64,000 nucleotides of DNA from Cupriavidus taiwanensis (GTDB lineage Bacteria > Pseudomonadota > Gammaproteobacteria > Burkholderiales > Burkholderiaceae). Under the pieces are notes generated by a model. It made no database searches. It saw nothing but the letters and a program-made list of their open reading frames with translations, and was not told the DNA's origin. The stretch spans positions 1,292,785-1,356,784 of the forward strand of contig NZ_LT976853.1 in NCBI RefSeq assembly GCF_900249755.1, written 5' to 3'. The translations under genes and the position numbers were made by a program. Positions 24,732 through 41,179 of this stretch are shown here, piece by piece. The stretch's first letter is position 1, and every line of letters begins with the position of its first letter.

Positions 24732-25297
24732 AGTCGGACCCCCCGTGCGCGCAGGGCCTGCGCAAGTGTGTGCGTGGCACGGGAACAGTGCGTCTTGACG
24801 CTGCCTTCGGAGCAGCCCATCACGGCCGCGGTTTCGGCGACGTCCATATCTTCCCAGTAACGCATCAGGAACGCCTGGCGTTGACGCGTGGGCAGGCGCT
24901 GGATCTCCTGCTCGATGATGTGCATGACCTGGGCGCGCTCGACCTTGTCGGCGCTGCTTTCGGCCGATGCGGAGCCGGCCTGTGCCTCGAGCGTCTCCAG
25001 CAGGTCGTTGTCGTCGCCGCCGTCGCGGTCGTCGCGCAGGCTGGAAAACAGCGAGACCCAGGTATTGCGCACCTTCTGGCGCCGGAACCAGTCATGGATG
25101 GTGTTCTGCAGGATGCGCTGGAACAGCGGCGCGAGTTCCGCGGCACCCTTGTCGCCATATTTCTCGGCCAGCTTGATCATGGCGTCCTGCACGATGTCGA
25201 GCGCGGCTTCGTCGTCGCGGACGGCGAACACGGCCTGCTTGAAGGCGCGCCGCTCGACGCTGGCAAGAAAGGCGGACAGTTCCTGGTCGGTGGCCAT
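24728..25297 (-). CDS. ECF-type RNA polymerase sigma factor
   Basis: 189 aa. Region 2 has A-A-L-D-I-V-Q-D-A-M-I-K-L-A and Q-N-T-I-H-D-W-F-R-R-Q-K for -10 recognition; region 4 contains L-P-T-R-Q-R-Q-A-F-L-M-R-Y and the helix-turn-helix V-A-E-T-A-A-V-M-G-C-S-E-G-S-V-K-T-H. A roughly 45-residue acidic linker (D-D-R-D-G-G-D-D-N-D) separates them. First gene of a leftward operon with DUF3619 and DUF3106; the same trio upstream of ilvI recurs in Burkholderiales as I remember. Regulon unknown. Confidence 0.88.
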   Translation of the reverse strand: MATDQELSAFLASVERRAFKQAVFAVRDDEAALDIVQDAMIKLAEKYGDKGAAELAPLFQRILQNTIHDWFRRQKVRNTWVSLFSSLRDDRDGGDDNDLLETLEAQAGSASAESSADKVERAQVMHIIEQEIQRLPTRQRQAFLMRYWEDMDVAETAAVMGCSEGSVKTHCSRATHTLAQALRARGVRL

Positions 25298-25675
25298 TCA
25301 GGCGGTTGGGGCTTGTTGCGCCGGGACCCGGGGCCCGGTTCTGGTGAATGTGCTTCCGGGGGCGCGCGGCGCCCCAATGTGCTGCGATGCTAGCAAAAAT
25401 TCGCCGCGCTGTACCGTTTTGTATGGCGTGGCATACATGACGGCATGCAAACGAAATGACAAATCGGGGGAACTTCCGGGTACCGGCGCTACAAAGAACC
25501 GTAGACCGCGCTGGTGCATTGCAGTATCATCGTCGGTTCACACGACATCAGTGGTTGTCTCATCCGGCCGCTTATGAGGCGGTCTTCCATGCAGACGCGC
25601 ACCGCTTGAACCCGAGCCACAAGCCCGGCAGAGAGCATCCAAACAATTTTTTGCCGAAAATTGCAAAGGACTGAA
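25298..25675 (+). other. 378-base gap: divergent promoters and ilv leader
   Basis: Between the ECF sigma gene and ilvI. Towards ilvI I see one promoter (25502-25530) and a leader of about 139 bases. The only small frame in it (25574-25609, 11 codons) has no Leu, Ile or Val codons, and no terminator with a T-run is visible, so transcription attenuation is not supported. Nothing else is recognised. Confidence 0.6.
25502..25530 (+). promoter_or_regulatory. Candidate sigma-70 promoter for ilvIHC
   Basis: TAGACC and TATCAT with exactly 17 bases between them; the start would be near 25537. Confidence 0.5.
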
Positions 25676-27439
25676 ATGAACATGCCCAGCGCGGAATTCT
25701 CCCACGCCGACAGCAATTCATCTGCCGCACCCGAAATGATCGGGGCGGAAATTCTCGTTCACGCACTTGCCGAAGAAGGCGTCGAGTACGTCTGGGGCTA
25801 CCCCGGCGGCGCAGTGCTGTACATCTACGACGAGCTCCACAAGCAAACCAAGTTCGAGCACATCCTGGTGCGCCACGAGCAGGCCGCGGTCCATGCCGCG
25901 GATGGCTACGCACGCGCAACCGGCAAGGTGGGCGTGGCGCTGGTGACCTCCGGTCCCGGCGTGACCAATGCCGTCACCGGTATCGCCACCGCGTACCTCG
26001 ACTCGATCCCGATGGTGGTGATCACCGGCAACGTGCCGACCCACGCCATCGGCCAGGACGCCTTCCAGGAGTGCGACACCGTCGGCATCACCCGCCCGAT
26101 CGTCAAGCACAACTTCCTGGTCAAGGACGTGCGCGACCTTGCCGCGACCATCAAGAAGGCATTCTTCATTGCCTCAACCGGCCGTCCCGGCCCGGTGGTG
26201 GTGGACATCCCCAAGGATGTCTCGCGCAATGCCTGCAAGTACGAGTACCCCAGGTCGATCGACATGCGCTCGTACAACCCGGTCAACAAGGGCCACTCGG
26301 GCCAGATCCGCAAGGCGGTGGCGCTGCTGCAGAATGCCGAGCGTCCGTACATCTACACCGGCGGCGGCGTGGTGCTGGCCAATGCCAGCGACGAGCTGCG
26401 CCAGCTGGCGGCGCTGACCGGCCACCCGGTGACCAACACGCTGATGGGCCTGGGCGCGTTCCCCGGCACCAGCAAGCAGTTCGTCGGCATGCTCGGCATG
26501 CACGGCACGTATGAAGCCAACATGGCGATGCAGAACTGCGACGTGCTGATCGCCATCGGTGCCCGCTTCGACGACCGCGTGATCGGCAACCCGTCGCACT
26601 TCACCTCGCAGGCGCGCAAGATCATCCATATCGACATCGACCCGTCGTCGATTTCCAAGCGCGTCAAGGTCGACATCCCCATCGTCGGCAACGTCAAGGA
26701 CGTGCTGCAGGAACTGATCGCCCAGATCAAGGCCAGCGACATCAAGCCCAAGCGCGAGGCGCTGGCGAAGTGGTGGGAGCAGATCGAGCAATGGCGCTCG
26801 GTGGACTGCCTGAAGTACGACCGCAGCTCCGAGATCATCAAGCCGCAGTACGTGGTCGAAAAAATCTGGGAACTGACCAAGGGCGATGCCTTTATCTGCT
26901 CCGACGTCGGCCAGCACCAGATGTGGGCCGCGCAGTTCTACAAGTTCGACGAGCCGCGCCGCTGGATCAACTCCGGCGGCCTGGGCACGATGGGCGTGGG
27001 CCTGCCGTACGCGATGGGCATCAAGAAGGCATTCCCGGAAAAGGAAGTCGTCACCATCACCGGCGAGGGCTCGATCCAGATGTGCATCCAGGAACTGTCG
27101 ACCTGCCTGCAGTACGACACCCCGGTGAAGATCTGCTCGCTCAACAATGGCTACCTGGGCATGGTGCGCCAGTGGCAGGAGATCGAGTACGACAACCGCT
27201 ACTCGCATTCCTACATGGACGCGCTGCCTGATTTCGTCAAGCTGGCCGAGGCCTATGGCCACGTCGGCATGCGCGTCGAGAAGACCGCCGACGTCGAGCC
27301 GGCGCTGCGCGAGGCGTTCCGCCTGAAGGACCGTACCGTGTTCCTGGACTTCCAGACCGATCCCACCGAAAACGTCTGGCCGATGGTCCAGGCCGGCAAG
27401 GGCATTTCCGAAATGCTGCTCGGCGCGGAGGACCTGTAA
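25676..27439 (+). CDS. ilvI: Acetolactate synthase catalytic subunit
   Basis: 587-aa ThDP enzyme, the first committed step to valine, leucine and isoleucine: two pyruvates to acetolactate, or pyruvate plus 2-ketobutyrate to acetohydroxybutyrate. The catalytic Glu is E68 in V-R-H-E-Q-A-A. The ThDP/Mg motif reads G-E-G at 463-465 followed by L-N-N some 27 residues later; most relatives have G-D-G. C-terminal Y-L-G-M-V-R-Q-W-Q is as in anabolic enzymes. The ATG at 25676 has AAAGGA in front; an in-frame TTG at 25661 is less likely. ilvH starts at the next base after the stop. Also called ilvB in related genomes. Confidence 0.96.
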   Translation: MNMPSAEFSHADSNSSAAPEMIGAEILVHALAEEGVEYVWGYPGGAVLYIYDELHKQTKFEHILVRHEQAAVHAADGYARATGKVGVALVTSGPGVTNAVTGIATAYLDSIPMVVITGNVPTHAIGQDAFQECDTVGITRPIVKHNFLVKDVRDLAATIKKAFFIASTGRPGPVVVDIPKDVSRNACKYEYPRSIDMRSYNPVNKGHSGQIRKAVALLQNAERPYIYTGGGVVLANASDELRQLAALTGHPVTNTLMGLGAFPGTSKQFVGMLGMHGTYEANMAMQNCDVLIAIGARFDDRVIGNPSHFTSQARKIIHIDIDPSSISKRVKVDIPIVGNVKDVLQELIAQIKASDIKPKREALAKWWEQIEQWRSVDCLKYDRSSEIIKPQYVVEKIWELTKGDAFICSDVGQHQMWAAQFYKFDEPRRWINSGGLGTMGVGLPYAMGIKKAFPEKEVVTITGEGSIQMCIQELSTCLQYDTPVKICSLNNGYLGMVRQWQEIEYDNRYSHSYMDALPDFVKLAEAYGHVGMRVEKTADVEPALREAFRLKDRTVFLDFQTDPTENVWPMVQAGKGISEMLLGAEDL

Positions 27440-29960: not shown

Positions 29961-29985
29961 GCCGCGGCCCGACCGGAGGACTGTG

Positions 29986-30867
29986 ATGGTTGCCTTCCAT
30001 CGACGTAACAAGCGCAGCAACAGCGGCAACGTGACCCACCTGCGGCCGTTCCGCCACAACCAGCTGCGCGGCGCCGACGACGACTTCGACGACGAAGCCG
30101 CCGACGACCACGACATCGTCTACCAGCGCCCGCGCCGGCGCGGCATCTACCTGCTGCCCAACGCCTTCACCACCGCGGCGCTGTTCGCCGGTTTCTTCGC
30201 CATCGTGCAGGCGATGAACATGCGCTTCGACGCCGCCGCCATCGCCATCTTCGCGGCCATGGTGCTCGATGGCATGGACGGGCGCGTGGCGCGCATCACC
30301 AATACGCAGAGCGCGTTCGGCGAGCAGTATGACTCGCTGTCGGACATGACCTCGTTCGGCGTCGCGCCGGCGCTGGTGATGTACGAATGGATCCTGCATG
30401 ACCTGGGCAAGTGGGGCTGGATTGCAGCCTTTGTCTACTGCACGTGCGCGGCGCTGCGGCTGGCGCGCTTCAACGCCAATATCGGCGTGGTCGACAAGCG
30501 CTTCTTCCAGGGGCTGCCCAGCCCGGCGGCCGCCGCGCTGGTGGCCGGCTTCGTCTGGCTGGTGATCGACAACAAGCTGCCGGTCAAGGAGCTGTGGATG
30601 CCGTGGGTGGCGTTCGGCATCACGCTGTACGCCGGGCTGTCGATGGTGTCCAACGCGCCGTTCTACAGCGGCAAGGCGCTCGACGTGCGTTACCGCGTGC
30701 CGTTCGGCATGATGGTGGTGGTCCTGGTGCTGTTCGTGGTGGTCTCGACCGATCCGCCGGTGGCGCTGTTCGGGCTGTTCGTGGCCTACGCGATTTCCGG
30801 CTATGTGCTGTGGGCCTGGCGGGCCCTGCACGGCAAGCCGGCGATCGAGAAGAAGCCGCGCGAGTAA
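29986..30867 (+). CDS. pssA: CDP-diacylglycerol-serine O-phosphatidyltransferase
   Basis: 293-aa membrane enzyme that makes phosphatidylserine from CDP-diacylglycerol and serine. The CDP-alcohol phosphatidyltransferase signature is complete: D-G-M-D-G-R-V-A-R followed by Y-D-S-L-S-D-M (D-x2-D-G-x2-A-R-x8-G-x3-D-x3-D). About eight hydrophobic segments surround it. The first 50 residues are polar and acidic, unlike the catalytic core. A GGAGGA precedes the ATG at 29986; a GTG directly before it is an alternative. Downstream of psd in one operon, followed by a hairpin. Confidence 0.93.
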   Translation: MVAFHRRNKRSNSGNVTHLRPFRHNQLRGADDDFDDEAADDHDIVYQRPRRRGIYLLPNAFTTAALFAGFFAIVQAMNMRFDAAAIAIFAAMVLDGMDGRVARITNTQSAFGEQYDSLSDMTSFGVAPALVMYEWILHDLGKWGWIAAFVYCTCAALRLARFNANIGVVDKRFFQGLPSPAAAALVAGFVWLVIDNKLPVKELWMPWVAFGITLYAGLSMVSNAPFYSGKALDVRYRVPFGMMVVVLVLFVVVSTDPPVALFGLFVAYAISGYVLWAWRALHGKPAIEKKPRE

Positions 30868-30873
30868 AACGCA

Positions 30874-30895
30874 GAAGGGCGCCCAGGCGCCCTTC
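30874..30895 (+). terminator. Hairpin terminator of the psd-pssA operon
   Basis: Perfect 10-bp stem GAAGGGCGCC / GGCGCCCTTC with a 2-base loop, 6 bases after the pssA stop. No T-run follows, so it is a likely but imperfect intrinsic terminator. Confidence 0.6.
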
Positions 30896-30987
30896 ATGCA
30901 TTGCGGAATTCACCATTGTTTTCATGCTGCGGCCGTCCGGTCGTGGCACTCTGCAGTGTTTTTTCCACTCACCGTCAGGAGGATGTC

Positions 30988-31491
30988 ATGGGCATGTTCG
31001 ACTTCATCAAGGAAGCGGGAGAAAAGCTGTTCGGCACCGGCGAGGCCAAGGCCGCGCAGGCCGCGGCCGCGGCGGATGCATCGGCGGAGAAGGTCGATGC
31101 CGCCAATCGCGCCGCCGGCGACGCGATCGAGGCGTATATCAGGAAGATGGGGCTGGACGCGACCGGGCTGATGGTGCAGGTCGACGGCTCGCAGGGCCTG
31201 GTCACCGTGTTCGGCGTGGCGCCCGACCAGGCCACGCGCGAGAAGATCATCCTGTGCGCCGGCAATGTCGAGGGCGTCGACAAGGTCGAGGACAAGATGT
31301 CGGTCAACGTCGAGTCGGCCGAGTCGCAATGGCATACCGTGGTCAAGGGCGACACGCTGTGGGCGATCGCGCAGGCGGCCTACGGCAACGGCGCGGAATA
31401 CAACAAGATCTTCGAGGCCAACAAGCCGATGCTGAGCCACCCGGACAAGATCTACCCGGGCCAGAAGCTGCGCATCCCGCCCAAGGGCTGA
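30988..31491 (+). CDS. BON-LysM protein (Kbp/YgaU-like)
   Basis: 167 aa without a signal peptide. Residues about 45-100 form a BON domain (L-V-T-V-F-G-V-A-P-D-Q) and residues about 110-165 a LysM domain (W-H-T-V-V-K-G-D-T-L-W-A-I-A-Q-A-A-Y-G). This order is that of E. coli Kbp (YgaU), a cytoplasmic K+-binding protein used under osmotic stress. The N-terminal 40 residues are Ala-rich. AGGAGG precedes the ATG. A lone gene between two transcription units. Confidence 0.85.
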   Translation: MGMFDFIKEAGEKLFGTGEAKAAQAAAAADASAEKVDAANRAAGDAIEAYIRKMGLDATGLMVQVDGSQGLVTVFGVAPDQATREKIILCAGNVEGVDKVEDKMSVNVESAESQWHTVVKGDTLWAIAQAAYGNGAEYNKIFEANKPMLSHPDKIYPGQKLRIPPKG

Positions 31492-31537
31492 GGCAATTCC
31501 ATTCCGCGGCCGGCGGCGCGTGCGGCAAAACCCTGTG

Positions 31538-31566
31538 TTGCACGCGCGCGCCAAGTCCGCTATAGT
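31538..31566 (+). promoter_or_regulatory. Sigma-70 promoter of the leuA leader
   Basis: TTGCAC and TATAGT separated by exactly 17 bases, five of six and five of six matches to consensus. The start is predicted at about 31573-31574, i.e. at the leader-peptide ATG. Confidence 0.75.
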
Positions 31567-31573
31567 CGCAGCC

Positions 31574-31654
31574 ATGATTTCGCGCCAAGTCCTAATCGCC
31601 CGCACCACCCTAGGTGGCCTACTAGGCCATCAGGTCGGGACGCGCGCGCGCTAA
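31574..31654 (+). CDS. Leucine leader peptide (26 codons), probably leaderless
   Basis: A short frame reading M-I-S-R-Q-V-L-I, then T-T-L-G-G-L-L-G, ending in basic residues. It has four leucines, all encoded by CTA (codons 7, 13, 16, 17), a codon very rare in this GC-rich genome, as well as Val and Ile beside the first Leu. A strong promoter puts the transcription start at or one base from its ATG, with no Shine-Dalgarno. It is followed by competing RNA hairpins and an intrinsic terminator before leuA. The role in leucine attenuation is inferred by analogy to leuL of enterobacteria. Confidence 0.75.
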   Translation: MISRQVLIARTTLGGLLGHQVGTRAR

Positions 31655-31734
31655 GGACGGACTTACCCCTTAGCGCGAAATCCGCAAGGAATTTTCCAAC
31701 GCCCCGGCCTGCTCCATGCACGCCGGGGCGTTTT
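31647..31734 (+). terminator. leuA attenuator: competing hairpins and intrinsic terminator
   Basis: Terminator: 11-bp stem 31698-31708 with 31722-31732, then TTTT. Upstream hairpin: 31647-31656 (CGCGCTAAGG, spanning the leader stop) with 31668-31677. The same 3' arm region can instead pair with the leader start: 31576-31585 with 31673-31682 (10 bp). An antiterminator is possible between 31631-31639 (just after the Leu codons) and 31703-31711, which would block the terminator. Pairings were found by eye; energies not computed. Confidence 0.75.
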
Positions 31735-31828
31735 GCATTCCACAGCCGTGGAGCGCGGAACAGGCGGTAAAGCCCCGGACGCAGCATGCCGGGGACAGCA
31801 CACGACAAGCAATCAGGAGCTCCACACC

Positions 31829-33370
31829 ATGTCTGACAAACTCATCATTTTCGACACCACCTTGCGTGACGGCGAACAATCGCCCGGCGCGTCGATGACG
31901 CGCGAGGAAAAGATCCGCATCGCGCGCCAGCTGGAACGCCTGAAGGTCGATGTGATCGAGGCCGGTTTCGCGGCGAGCTCCAATGGCGACTTCGAAGCGA
32001 TCCGCTCGATCGCGCAGGTGGTCAAGGACTCCACCATCTGCTCGCTGGCCCGCGCCAACGACAAGGACATCGCCCGAGCCGCCGAGGCGCTCAAGCCCGC
32101 CAACTCGTTCCGCATCCACACCTTCATCGCCACCTCGGCGCTGCACATGGAGAAGAAGCTGCGCATGACGCCGGACCAGGTGTACGAGCAGGCCCGCCTG
32201 GCGGTGCGCTTTGCGCGCCAGTTCACCGACGATATCGAGTTCTCGCCGGAAGACGGCAGCCGCTCGGACATGGACTTCCTGTGCCGCGTGCTCGAAGGCG
32301 TGATCGCCGAGGGCGCGACCACCATCAACCTGCCCGATACCGTGGGCTACGCCGTGCCGGAAGGCTATGCCGCGCTGATCCGCTCGGTGCGCGAGCGCAT
32401 TCCCAACTCGGACAAGGCGGTGTGGTCGGTGCACTGCCATAACGACCTGGGCATGGCGGTGGCCAACTCGCTGGCGGCGGTCAAGATGGCCGGCGCGCGC
32501 CAGATCGAATGCACCATCAATGGCCTGGGCGAACGGGCCGGCAACACCAGCCTGGAAGAAGTGGTGATGGCGGTCAAGACCCGCCGCGACTACTTCAACC
32601 TGGACCTCGGCATCGACACCACGCAGATCGTGCCGGCGTCGAAGCTGGTATCGCAGATCACCGGCTTCGCGGTGCAGCCGAACAAGGCCGTGGTCGGCGC
32701 CAACGCCTTCGCGCATGCCTCGGGTATCCACCAGGACGGCGTGCTCAAGGCGCGCGATACCTACGAGATCATGCGCGCGGAAGATGTAGGCTGGACCGCC
32801 AACAAGATCGTGCTGGGCAAGCTGTCGGGCCGCAACGCCTTCAAGCAGCGCCTGCAGGAACTGGGCATCGAGCTGGAGAGCGAGACCGAGGTCAACGCCG
32901 CCTTCACGCGCTTCAAGGAGCTGGCCGACCAGAAGTCCGAGATCTTCGACGAAGACATCATGGCCATCGTCTCGAACGAGGCCCAGCATGACGCCAACGA
33001 ACACTTCCGCTTTATCTCGCTGTCGCAGCGCTCCGAGACCGGCGAGCGCCCGCATGCGCGCGTGGTGTTCAGCATGGACGGGCAGGAGCAGAGCGGCGAG
33101 GGCGAGGGCAACGGCCCGGTCGACGCCACGCTGCACGCGATCGAGTCGCGCGTGGCCAGCGGCGCCGAGATGGTGCTGTACTCGGTGAACGCCATCACCG
33201 GCGGCACCGAGGCCCAGGGCGAAGTGACCGTGCGCCTGTCCAAGGCCGGACGCATCGTCAACGGCGTCGGTACCGACCCGGATATCGTCGCGGCCTCGGC
33301 CAAGGCCTACCTGGCCGCGCTGAACAAGCTGCACGACAAGGCCGTGCAGAAGATCAACCCGCAGATCTGA
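31829..33370 (+). CDS. leuA: 2-isopropylmalate synthase
   Basis: 513-aa long-form enzyme, first committed step to leucine: 2-ketoisovalerate plus acetyl-CoA to 2-isopropylmalate. [12 protein letters not shown] (residues 9-20) is the HMGL-like TIM-barrel start; H-C-H-N-D-L-G supplies metal-binding His. The C-terminal 120 residues form the LeuA regulatory dimerisation domain where leucine binds. AGGAG lies before the ATG at 31829; a longer upstream frame overlaps the leader region. The other leu genes are not here. Transcribed through the attenuator described above. Confidence 0.95.
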
Positions 33371-41094: not shown

Positions 41095-41179
41095 GCCGAC
41101 GTGGTGAAATTGGTAGACACGCTATCTTGAGGGGGTAGTGGCGAAAGCTGTGCGAGTTCGAGTCTCGCCGTCGGCACCA
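41095..41179 (+). tRNA. tRNA-Leu, anticodon GAG
   Basis: 85 nt with encoded CCA. The acceptor stem GCCGACG pairs with CGTCGGC. The D-loop is typical for a class II tRNA, the anticodon loop TTGAGGG gives GAG, there is a long variable arm, and the T-arm contains GTTCGAGTC. Decodes CUC and CUU. Placed between secG and nuoA. Confidence 0.97.

Follow-up and report, generated by a model that had tools for sequence, protein, structure and literature searches.

In Cupriavidus taiwanensis, leuA is very probably preceded by a ribosome-mediated leucine attenuator whose leader peptide is encoded by a leaderless open reading frame (ORF). The locus lies in a 64,000-nt stretch of contig NZ_LT976853.1, here called the window, and was compared with leuA loci of relatives. 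Of 150 loci, the window's included, 107 have a predicted leaderless, Leu-rich ORF ahead of leuA (2.6 on average and at most 5 in shuffled sequences), and the leader frame before leuA is real and not a chance occurrence. The leader peptide, its predicted leaderless start, the antiterminator, and the terminator survive the comparison with relatives and are supported in silico. In the window itself, a Leu-rich leader ORF, an intrinsic terminator, and a mutually exclusive antiterminator are all found in silico (Table 1).

Table 1. Predicted elements of the leuA leader region, in window coordinates.
Feature	Position	Strand	Details
Promoter	31538-31566	+	TTGCAC 31538-31543, 17-nt spacer, TATAGT 31561-31566
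Leader peptide ORF	31574-31654	+	26 codons and TAA; peptide MISRQVLIARTTLGGLLGHQVGTRAR
Regulatory Leu codons	31592, 31610, 31619, 31622	+	CTA triplets, these four only
Antiterminator 5' arm, CAGGTCGGG	31631-31639	+	within the leader ORF
Stop-codon hairpin	31647-31656 with 31668-31677	+	enclosed by the antiterminator
Intrinsic terminator	31698-31708 with 31722-31732	+	T4 at 31731-31734
Antiterminator 3' arm	31703-31711	+	overlaps the terminator 5' arm
leuA, 2-isopropylmalate synthase (presumed regulated gene)	31829-33370	+	AGGAG ahead of the start

The sequence bears out the promoter, the ATG, and the 26-codon frame that the initial annotation had placed here, with four CTA triplets, spaced 1+1+2, as the sole Leu codons. 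The gap from TATAGT to ATG 31574 is 7 nt, and the stop codon lies at 31652-31654. CTA is also rare in this DNA, as had been claimed, and makes up 8 of the 1528 Leu codons in the long ORFs of the window; 41 long non-overlapping ORFs were picked for this count, and an ORF was counted only if more than 70% of its third positions were G or C. The leader stretch has a single match in its own genome, which is itself. When the leader test described below was run on 384 tiles of the window, just 2 scored, and both contain this frame. A generic promoter and terminator scan of the window listed neither the promoter of the leuA leader nor its terminator. The promoter is missed because its -35 hexamer is poor by the E. 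coli rule (TTGCAC shares 3 of its 6 bases with TTGACA), and the terminator because its loop is too large and its T run too short for the limits of the scan. The leuA product has Pfam matches to HMGL-like and LeuA_dimer and is 98% identical to LeuA of C. necator UYPR2.512, which is among the best 80 of 586 confirmed stretches. Upstream of the leader, positions 29983-31491 hold a CDP-alcohol phosphatidyltransferase gene and a BON/LysM gene.

The start site, translation, stalling, and leucine response at the leuA leader are those that we infer from this arrangement. RNA polymerase would start at the A of ATG 31574 or no more than about 1 nt away from it, and the ribosome would load directly on the 5' AUG without a Shine-Dalgarno (SD) site. 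When leucyl-tRNA for CUA is scarce, the ribosome would stall at CUA 31610 or 31619 and leave 31631-31639 free to pair with 31703-31711. This antiterminator helix would take the 5' arm of the terminator, and RNA polymerase would read through into leuA. When leucine is ample, the ribosome would reach the stop codon at 31652 and cover 31631-31639, the terminator at 31698-31732 would form, and transcription would end in the T run. The full-length fold predicted without translation is the terminated form as well. A stalled ribosome reaches some 12 nt beyond the A site. Counted from the first base of the last CTA, the antiterminator begins 9 nt on in the window and 10 nt on in the most frequent layout of the Comamonadaceae-like alignment.

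Three stretches of the leader RNA fold with z-scores of -5.8 (31574-31740), -5.5 (31690-31740), and -4.9 (31631-31711), and in each case 0 shuffles fold as well. The antiterminator proposed in the initial annotation was found in the fold with 9 pairs, one of them G-U, and it encloses the stop-codon hairpin (-39.5 kcal/mol for 31631-31711). That hairpin had been thought to compete with a second pairing. It is present in the fold, but it is nested in the antiterminator and does not compete with it, and it is not a general part of the device. As a core element it was rejected: among 12 Cupriavidus-type sequences, 85% of its cells are paired, no more than in shuffles, with no covariation, and inspection of the Ralstonia-type alignment by eye showed no such hairpin. 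The terminator, described earlier as an 11-bp hairpin with T4, exists but is composed of 9 GC-rich pairs and two A-U pairs that borrow part of T4. It forms in the fold once the 5' arm of the antiterminator is absent. The two helices are mutually exclusive in silico, and their arms share 31703-31708. The complete RNA folds to -52.2 kcal/mol with the terminator versus -43.4 kcal/mol with the antiterminator forced. Because the complete RNA prefers the terminator, antitermination must be kinetic, and read-through must be decided with RNA polymerase between about 31711 and 31731. The further pairing of the initial annotation, near 31576-31585 with about 31673-31682, is also present in the full-length fold.

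Of the 150 loci, 80 are named, and the other 70, one of which is the window's own, come from genomes of the family. The 70 are the 30 best LeuA matches and 40 chosen by hand (113 of 120 genomes had a match), and the 80 are the best 80 of the 586 confirmed stretches. The set holds 148 distinct upstream 300-mers, and some genomes are counted twice. Group labels ending in -like or -type were, for part of the loci, assigned by likeness to named loci; the Polynucleobacter-like group is made up of four g12 loci and L101 (a Polynucleobacter MAG). The leader test scores frames for Leu and CTA; a frame qualifies if it is 14-50 codons long and opens 5-8 nt past a -10-like box. The control was 20 rounds of dinucleotide shuffles. 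An additional order set of 51 regions from 43 other families, 1-3 per family, was chosen by hand from 131 genomes with a match. Here, the criterion was a predicted leaderless frame in which 4 or more of 8 residues are Leu.

By the leader test, 59 of the 80 named loci have the leader ORF, and 99 of the ORFs in the 107 leaders are distinct. For the Cupriavidus, Ralstonia, and g4 groups, the device is present in 25 of the 25 loci fetched, the window's own included. The order set has a leaderless Leu-rich frame in 26 of 51 regions, representing 24 families (shuffle mean 0.4, maximum 3), and the frame ends in an LLR-type tail in 23 of these 26. The same tests found no ORF in 43 of the 150 loci, 21 of them named, and no frame in 25 of the 51 order-set regions, and these loci count against universality of the leader. 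Judged from these sequences, the leader is much more widespread than the initial annotation supposed.

Conservation of the CTA run in relatives was a check named in the initial annotation. CTA accounts for 326 of the 640 leader Leu codons in the 107 leaders, a figure biased upward because the CTA count helped to choose the ORFs. In leuA itself, CTA accounts for 18 of 2894 Leu codons (first 500 codons, 80 named loci). The order-set leaders use CTA for 19 of 187 Leu codons and lack it in 16 of 26, so the CTA preference is not general. Changes at the first, second, and third codon positions number 98, 89, and 91 in the Cupriavidus frames, with no third-position excess, and conservation of the leader peptide as a protein is thus unsupported in Cupriavidus. 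There is a third-position excess in the Burkholderia-type (33, 36, and 85) and Comamonadaceae-like (879, 731, and 1112) frames.

Several loci showed other arrangements when inspected by eye. In Massilia and Janthinobacterium loci, another reading frame closely precedes leuA, and Collimonas loci have no such leader. A separate leuA promoter and leader are not evident at L099, L127, and L148. The TTGCAC-TATAGT promoter is kept without a Leu frame at L050 and L086, and at L084 a short frame with a single Leu follows the retained -10 box. At L076 (Pandoraea aquatica), L027, L028, L030, L031, L033, and L071, the -10 box and start codon keep their spacing (ATGATTTC...), but Leu and CTA runs are missing and a terminator is not evident; these are possibly decayed or repurposed leaders. 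L076 is counted among the 107 though it has neither CTA nor a Leu run. The leader of L107, labelled a Polynucleobacter MAG, is nearly equal to that of L095 (an Oxalobacteraceae MAG) and is of the type B described below, unlike the other Polynucleobacter-like loci; L107 is perhaps a mislabelled contig.

The same leucine attenuator might not be leaderless, with transcription starting further upstream and translation beginning from an unrecognized ribosome site or an upstream in-frame start. The frame is open for 46 codons upstream of ATG 31574, and further in several relatives, and contains in-frame TTG and GTG codons. However, the nearest of these upstream starts fall in the promoter region. 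The -10 box lies 6 or 7 nt ahead of the start codon in 104 of the 107 leaders, where 5 to 8 nt were allowed and the spacing was in part fixed by the ORF-finding rule. Moreover, a -35 TTGC is found at exactly the 17-nt spacer in 67 of the 68 leaders outside the Comamonadaceae-like and Polynucleobacter-like groups (0 of 34 and 0 of 5 leaders in these two groups, respectively). An SD-like 4-mer is found ahead of leuA in 114 of 133 cases and ahead of the leader ATG (-15 to -4) in 0 of 133 leaders, the window's among them, a figure that is partly fixed by the ORF-finding rule and partly forced by the -10 box. A start upstream of the ATG is, on this evidence, unlikely.

Readings in which the small frame does not sense leucine fare worse. 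The hairpin is strong and followed by T4, and a same-strand gene ends at 31491, so the terminator could be the end of the upstream BON/LysM transcript or a constitutive terminator, with the small frame a product of chance. This is extremely unlikely, as the hairpin follows a promoter and a Leu-rich frame at each of the 25 fetched loci of the Cupriavidus, Ralstonia, and g4 groups, the terminator arm has its match in the ORF tail, and the CTA enrichment and shuffle results of the leader test argue against chance. Regulation by a DNA- or RNA-binding protein, or by a trans-acting sRNA or peptide derived from the terminated leader, would make the Leu codons incidental and is very unlikely. In its favour, GGCCTACTAGGCC forms a palindrome that might serve as an operator, GGCCTACTAGG hardly varies across the Cupriavidus and Ralstonia types, and the trans-acting leader peptide peTrpL is known in Sinorhizobium (excerpts of PMC7298713). 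Yet, by eye, the palindrome is not kept in the Comamonadaceae-like, Polynucleobacter-like, and Burkholderia-type leaders, and these groups still keep the frame, the Leu codons, and the start spacing despite their different sequence. Attenuation and regulation by a protein or in trans could both be true at once.

For the ribosome-mediated attenuator, the stems were compared within groups. The Cupriavidus, Ralstonia, and g4 alignment holds 22 distinct sequences from 23 of 25 loci, and the Comamonadaceae-like alignment holds 33 of 34 candidates (L141 was left out since its peptide and terminator equal those of L140). Covariation of the stems had been named as a check in the initial annotation; it was found for the Comamonadaceae-like terminator and to some extent for the antiterminator of that group, but not for the antiterminator or stop-codon hairpin in Cupriavidus. 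In the 12 Cupriavidus-type sequences, 108 of 108 antiterminator cells are paired, and the pairing is nearly invariant, with no covariation. The terminator is near-identical across the 23 aligned Cupriavidus-, Ralstonia-, and g4-type sequences. The 33 Comamonadaceae-like leaders are very different in sequence, and 264 of 264 cells of their terminator are paired. Among these, 18 cells changed on both sides, and 0 of 500 shuffles were as high in paired cells, both-side changes, or covariation score; both-side changes occur in 3 pairs, no more than in shuffles (299 of 500 as high). The Comamonadaceae-like antiterminator, formed by the ORF segment past the Leu run and the terminator 5' arm, is paired in 76% of cells over eight pairs and in 188 of 198 cells in its six core pairs. 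Both-side changes affect 3 of the eight pairs, a number reached in 5 of 500 shuffles, and the covariation score was reached in 0 of 500. Further pair types in this terminator and antiterminator are fewer than in most shuffles.

A swap test, in which terminator arms were matched with the ORF tails of their own and other groups, supports group-specific antiterminator pairing in part. The Cupriavidus, Comamonadaceae-like, and both Polynucleobacter-like arms bind the tail of their own group best, with a tie with Ralstonia for the Cupriavidus arm and -13.5 versus -12.3 kcal/mol for the next tail for the Comamonadaceae-like arm. For the Ralstonia and g4 arms, Cupriavidus tails are better partners than the tails of their own groups, and for Comamonadaceae-like tails, a Cupriavidus arm is about as good a partner as one of their own group. 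When the ORF tail was shuffled at single loci, the results were weak (94 of 500 as good for the window and 293 of 500 for L021), and such per-locus shuffles are often unimpressive because the sequences are GC-rich. GCGC-rich blocks (GCGCACGCGC, GCGCGCTAA) are found at or just past the leader stop in many leaders of all main groups, at columns of about 65-78 in A1, around the stop in type B leaders, and at 31640-31651 in the window.

Two leader architectures, A and B, can be read from the loci, and this apparent split, which overlaps in part, seems to be the most novel aspect of the leader. Type A is composed of the window, Ralstonia, Polynucleobacter-like, and Comamonadaceae-like loci and has an intrinsic terminator. 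In the 63 leaders with such a terminator, 6-10 codons follow the last CTA, though 10 of the 63 have at most 5 codons after the last Leu. Type B includes Burkholderia-type, Oxalobacteraceae, and many other-family loci, has its Leu codons nearer the stop, and is mostly without an intrinsic terminator. Among 43 leaders outside the type A groups, 1 or 2 codons follow the last Leu in 37, and order-set leaders have 1-5 codons between the last Leu and the stop; the overlap on this side is 12 of 42 other leaders with 6 or 7 codons after the last CTA. The terminator finder gave matches in 7 of the 26 order-set leaders and in 4 Burkholderia-type leaders (L035, L036, L041, and L070). These four were scored as lacking a terminator by a post-hoc rule, on account of their loop length, G-U pairing, and weak T runs. 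L138 was likewise scored as lacking one despite a visible longer-loop hairpin with TTT.

In type A, the regulatory codons would be far enough from the stop for the ORF tail to serve as the antiterminator. In type B, which would be the commoner across families, the Leu codons lie near the stop, often as ...LLLRPAR*, and a Rho-loading site next to the stop codon would be hidden under the stalled ribosome, as it is in tnaC. The type B leaders of other families and Oxalobacteraceae have C-rich, G-poor RNA past the stop. The 40 nt past the stop of order-set leaders have a C content of 0.376 and a G content of 0.155, with C above G in 25 of 26, and the rest of the leader has 0.27 for both (C above G in 11 of 23). 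The same 40 nt in type A leaders have 0.33 C and 0.22 G, with C above G in 53 of 63. Over 60 nt, the 8 Oxalobacteraceae-type leaders are G-poor (C 0.36, G 0.18) and the 30 Burkholderia-type leaders are not (C 0.37, G 0.29). Judged from base composition only, Rho is the likeliest terminator of type B, though this is a guess. We consider it possible, but somewhat doubtful, that an old leaderless leucine leader of leuA in this betaproteobacterial order swapped its type of terminator, intrinsic in A and Rho in B, while the sensor was kept.

A motif like CCCACAATTCG past the type B stop occurs in 5 of 26 and 7 of 43 leaders, too few to build on. Burkholderia-type leaders (for example, L067, L069, and L097) have a conserved hairpin-like stretch, GCGTCGCC-AGC-GGTGGCGC and variants, about 40 nt past the stop. 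This stretch has no T run, and by eye its 3' arm could pair with the end of the ORF.

Enterobacterial leucine attenuation is textbook knowledge, and its leader ORF is SD-led. We take RF00512 to be the Rfam entry for this leader (Leu_leader); no leucine-leader match was among the 3 Rfam matches at E <= 10 for window positions 31500-31830, and no Rfam family reached its gathering score in 9 relatives. In Sinorhizobium meliloti, peTrpL is translated leaderless. Morbach 2000 reportedly described the Corynebacterium glutamicum ilvB leader, with a short ORF that is leaderless or without a ribosome binding site, as an amino-acid sensor, and Canestrari 2020 is said to have assigned this role to mycobacterial poly-cysteine leaderless ORFs. 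Both concern other genes in Actinobacteria, and the latter another amino acid. Vitreschak 2004 and Lopatovskaya 2010 may contain related predictions.

E. coli leuL has four consecutive CUA codons, so that these codons are not peculiar to the window leader (PMC8384417, in excerpt). The response of E. coli leuL is known to run through these codons. According to the same excerpts, an E. coli leuL-leuA reporter was up 11.5-fold with tRNA lacking m1G37 and only 2.7-fold when the four CUA codons were changed to UUA (PMC8384417). Like leuL, the window has a short leader ORF with CUA codons and predicted attenuation before leuA. Unlike leuL, it has no SD site, its start codon is at the predicted 5' end, its peptide is different, and its CTA codons are split 1+1+2 instead of being consecutive.

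The initial annotation had regarded a leaderless leucine leader as a new combination. The attenuator with a leaderless leader holds in silico through the comparison with relatives, but the novelty of the combination does not, as sections of PMC8079986 describe it in Actinobacteria. There, the LeuL peptides of Streptomyces lividans before leuA (LeuL1) and leuS (LeuL2) are 'transcribed leaderless', and leaderless leuA leaders are likewise described in other Actinobacteria. Like LeuL1, the window leader is a leucine leader peptide before leuA, and it is predicted to be leaderless as well. LeuL1 is said in those sections to lack a typical Rho-independent terminator, whereas the window leader has one, and the actinobacterial leaders belong to another phylum. 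The presumed leuA leader of C. glutamicum has four consecutive Leu codons (PMC4046766; the leader is also in PMC3890552, both in excerpt). Like the window leader, peTrpL of S. meliloti is an attenuator leader peptide in a proteobacterium (PMC7298713, in part), but it concerns tryptophan and alphaproteobacteria, not leucine.

Leaderless mRNAs are common in Cupriavidus metallidurans, at 4.67% of primary start sites (excerpts of PMC7563307), and occur in Burkholderia cenocepacia (excerpts of PMC4603805). The main text of these two start-site maps does not mention leuA, leader peptides, attenuation, or leucine; leucine is likewise unmentioned in PMC4833913 and PMC2965389, and PMC5760752 is without leader terms. 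A review (PMC6123439, in the part citing Vitreschak 2004) describes putative leader peptides and terminators of branched-chain genes in various Gram-negatives. No report of a betaproteobacterial leucine leader was found in the open-licence papers searched, represented in part by excerpts, so an earlier prediction is possible. The device would be a known mechanism in a leaderless form for which no report was found in this group, and what seems new is the presence and breadth of the leaderless leucine leader in this proteobacterial order.

If the proposed attenuator is correct, many families have a sensor frame that begins with the first base of the RNA. With the frame at base 1, ribosome loading and RNA polymerase would be tied from the first nucleotide, and the leaders would provide a large natural set for studying the coupling of leaderless translation to attenuation. 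With the same gene and signal, the set would also allow a study of how an attenuator shifts from one type of termination to another, intrinsic or perhaps Rho-dependent. In addition, it would draw attention to a small ORF ahead of leuA that may escape gene finders.

Other features of the window were noted. By eye, a similar leader is not evident in 25150-25760, ahead of a 592-codon ORF at 25661 (candidate ilvI). A tRNA-Leu with anticodon GAG lies at 41095-41179 on the + strand, and presumably it would not read CUA by standard wobble rules. A yybP-ykoY manganese riboswitch is found at 638-874 on the - strand, with 53.2 bits at a gathering score of 45.
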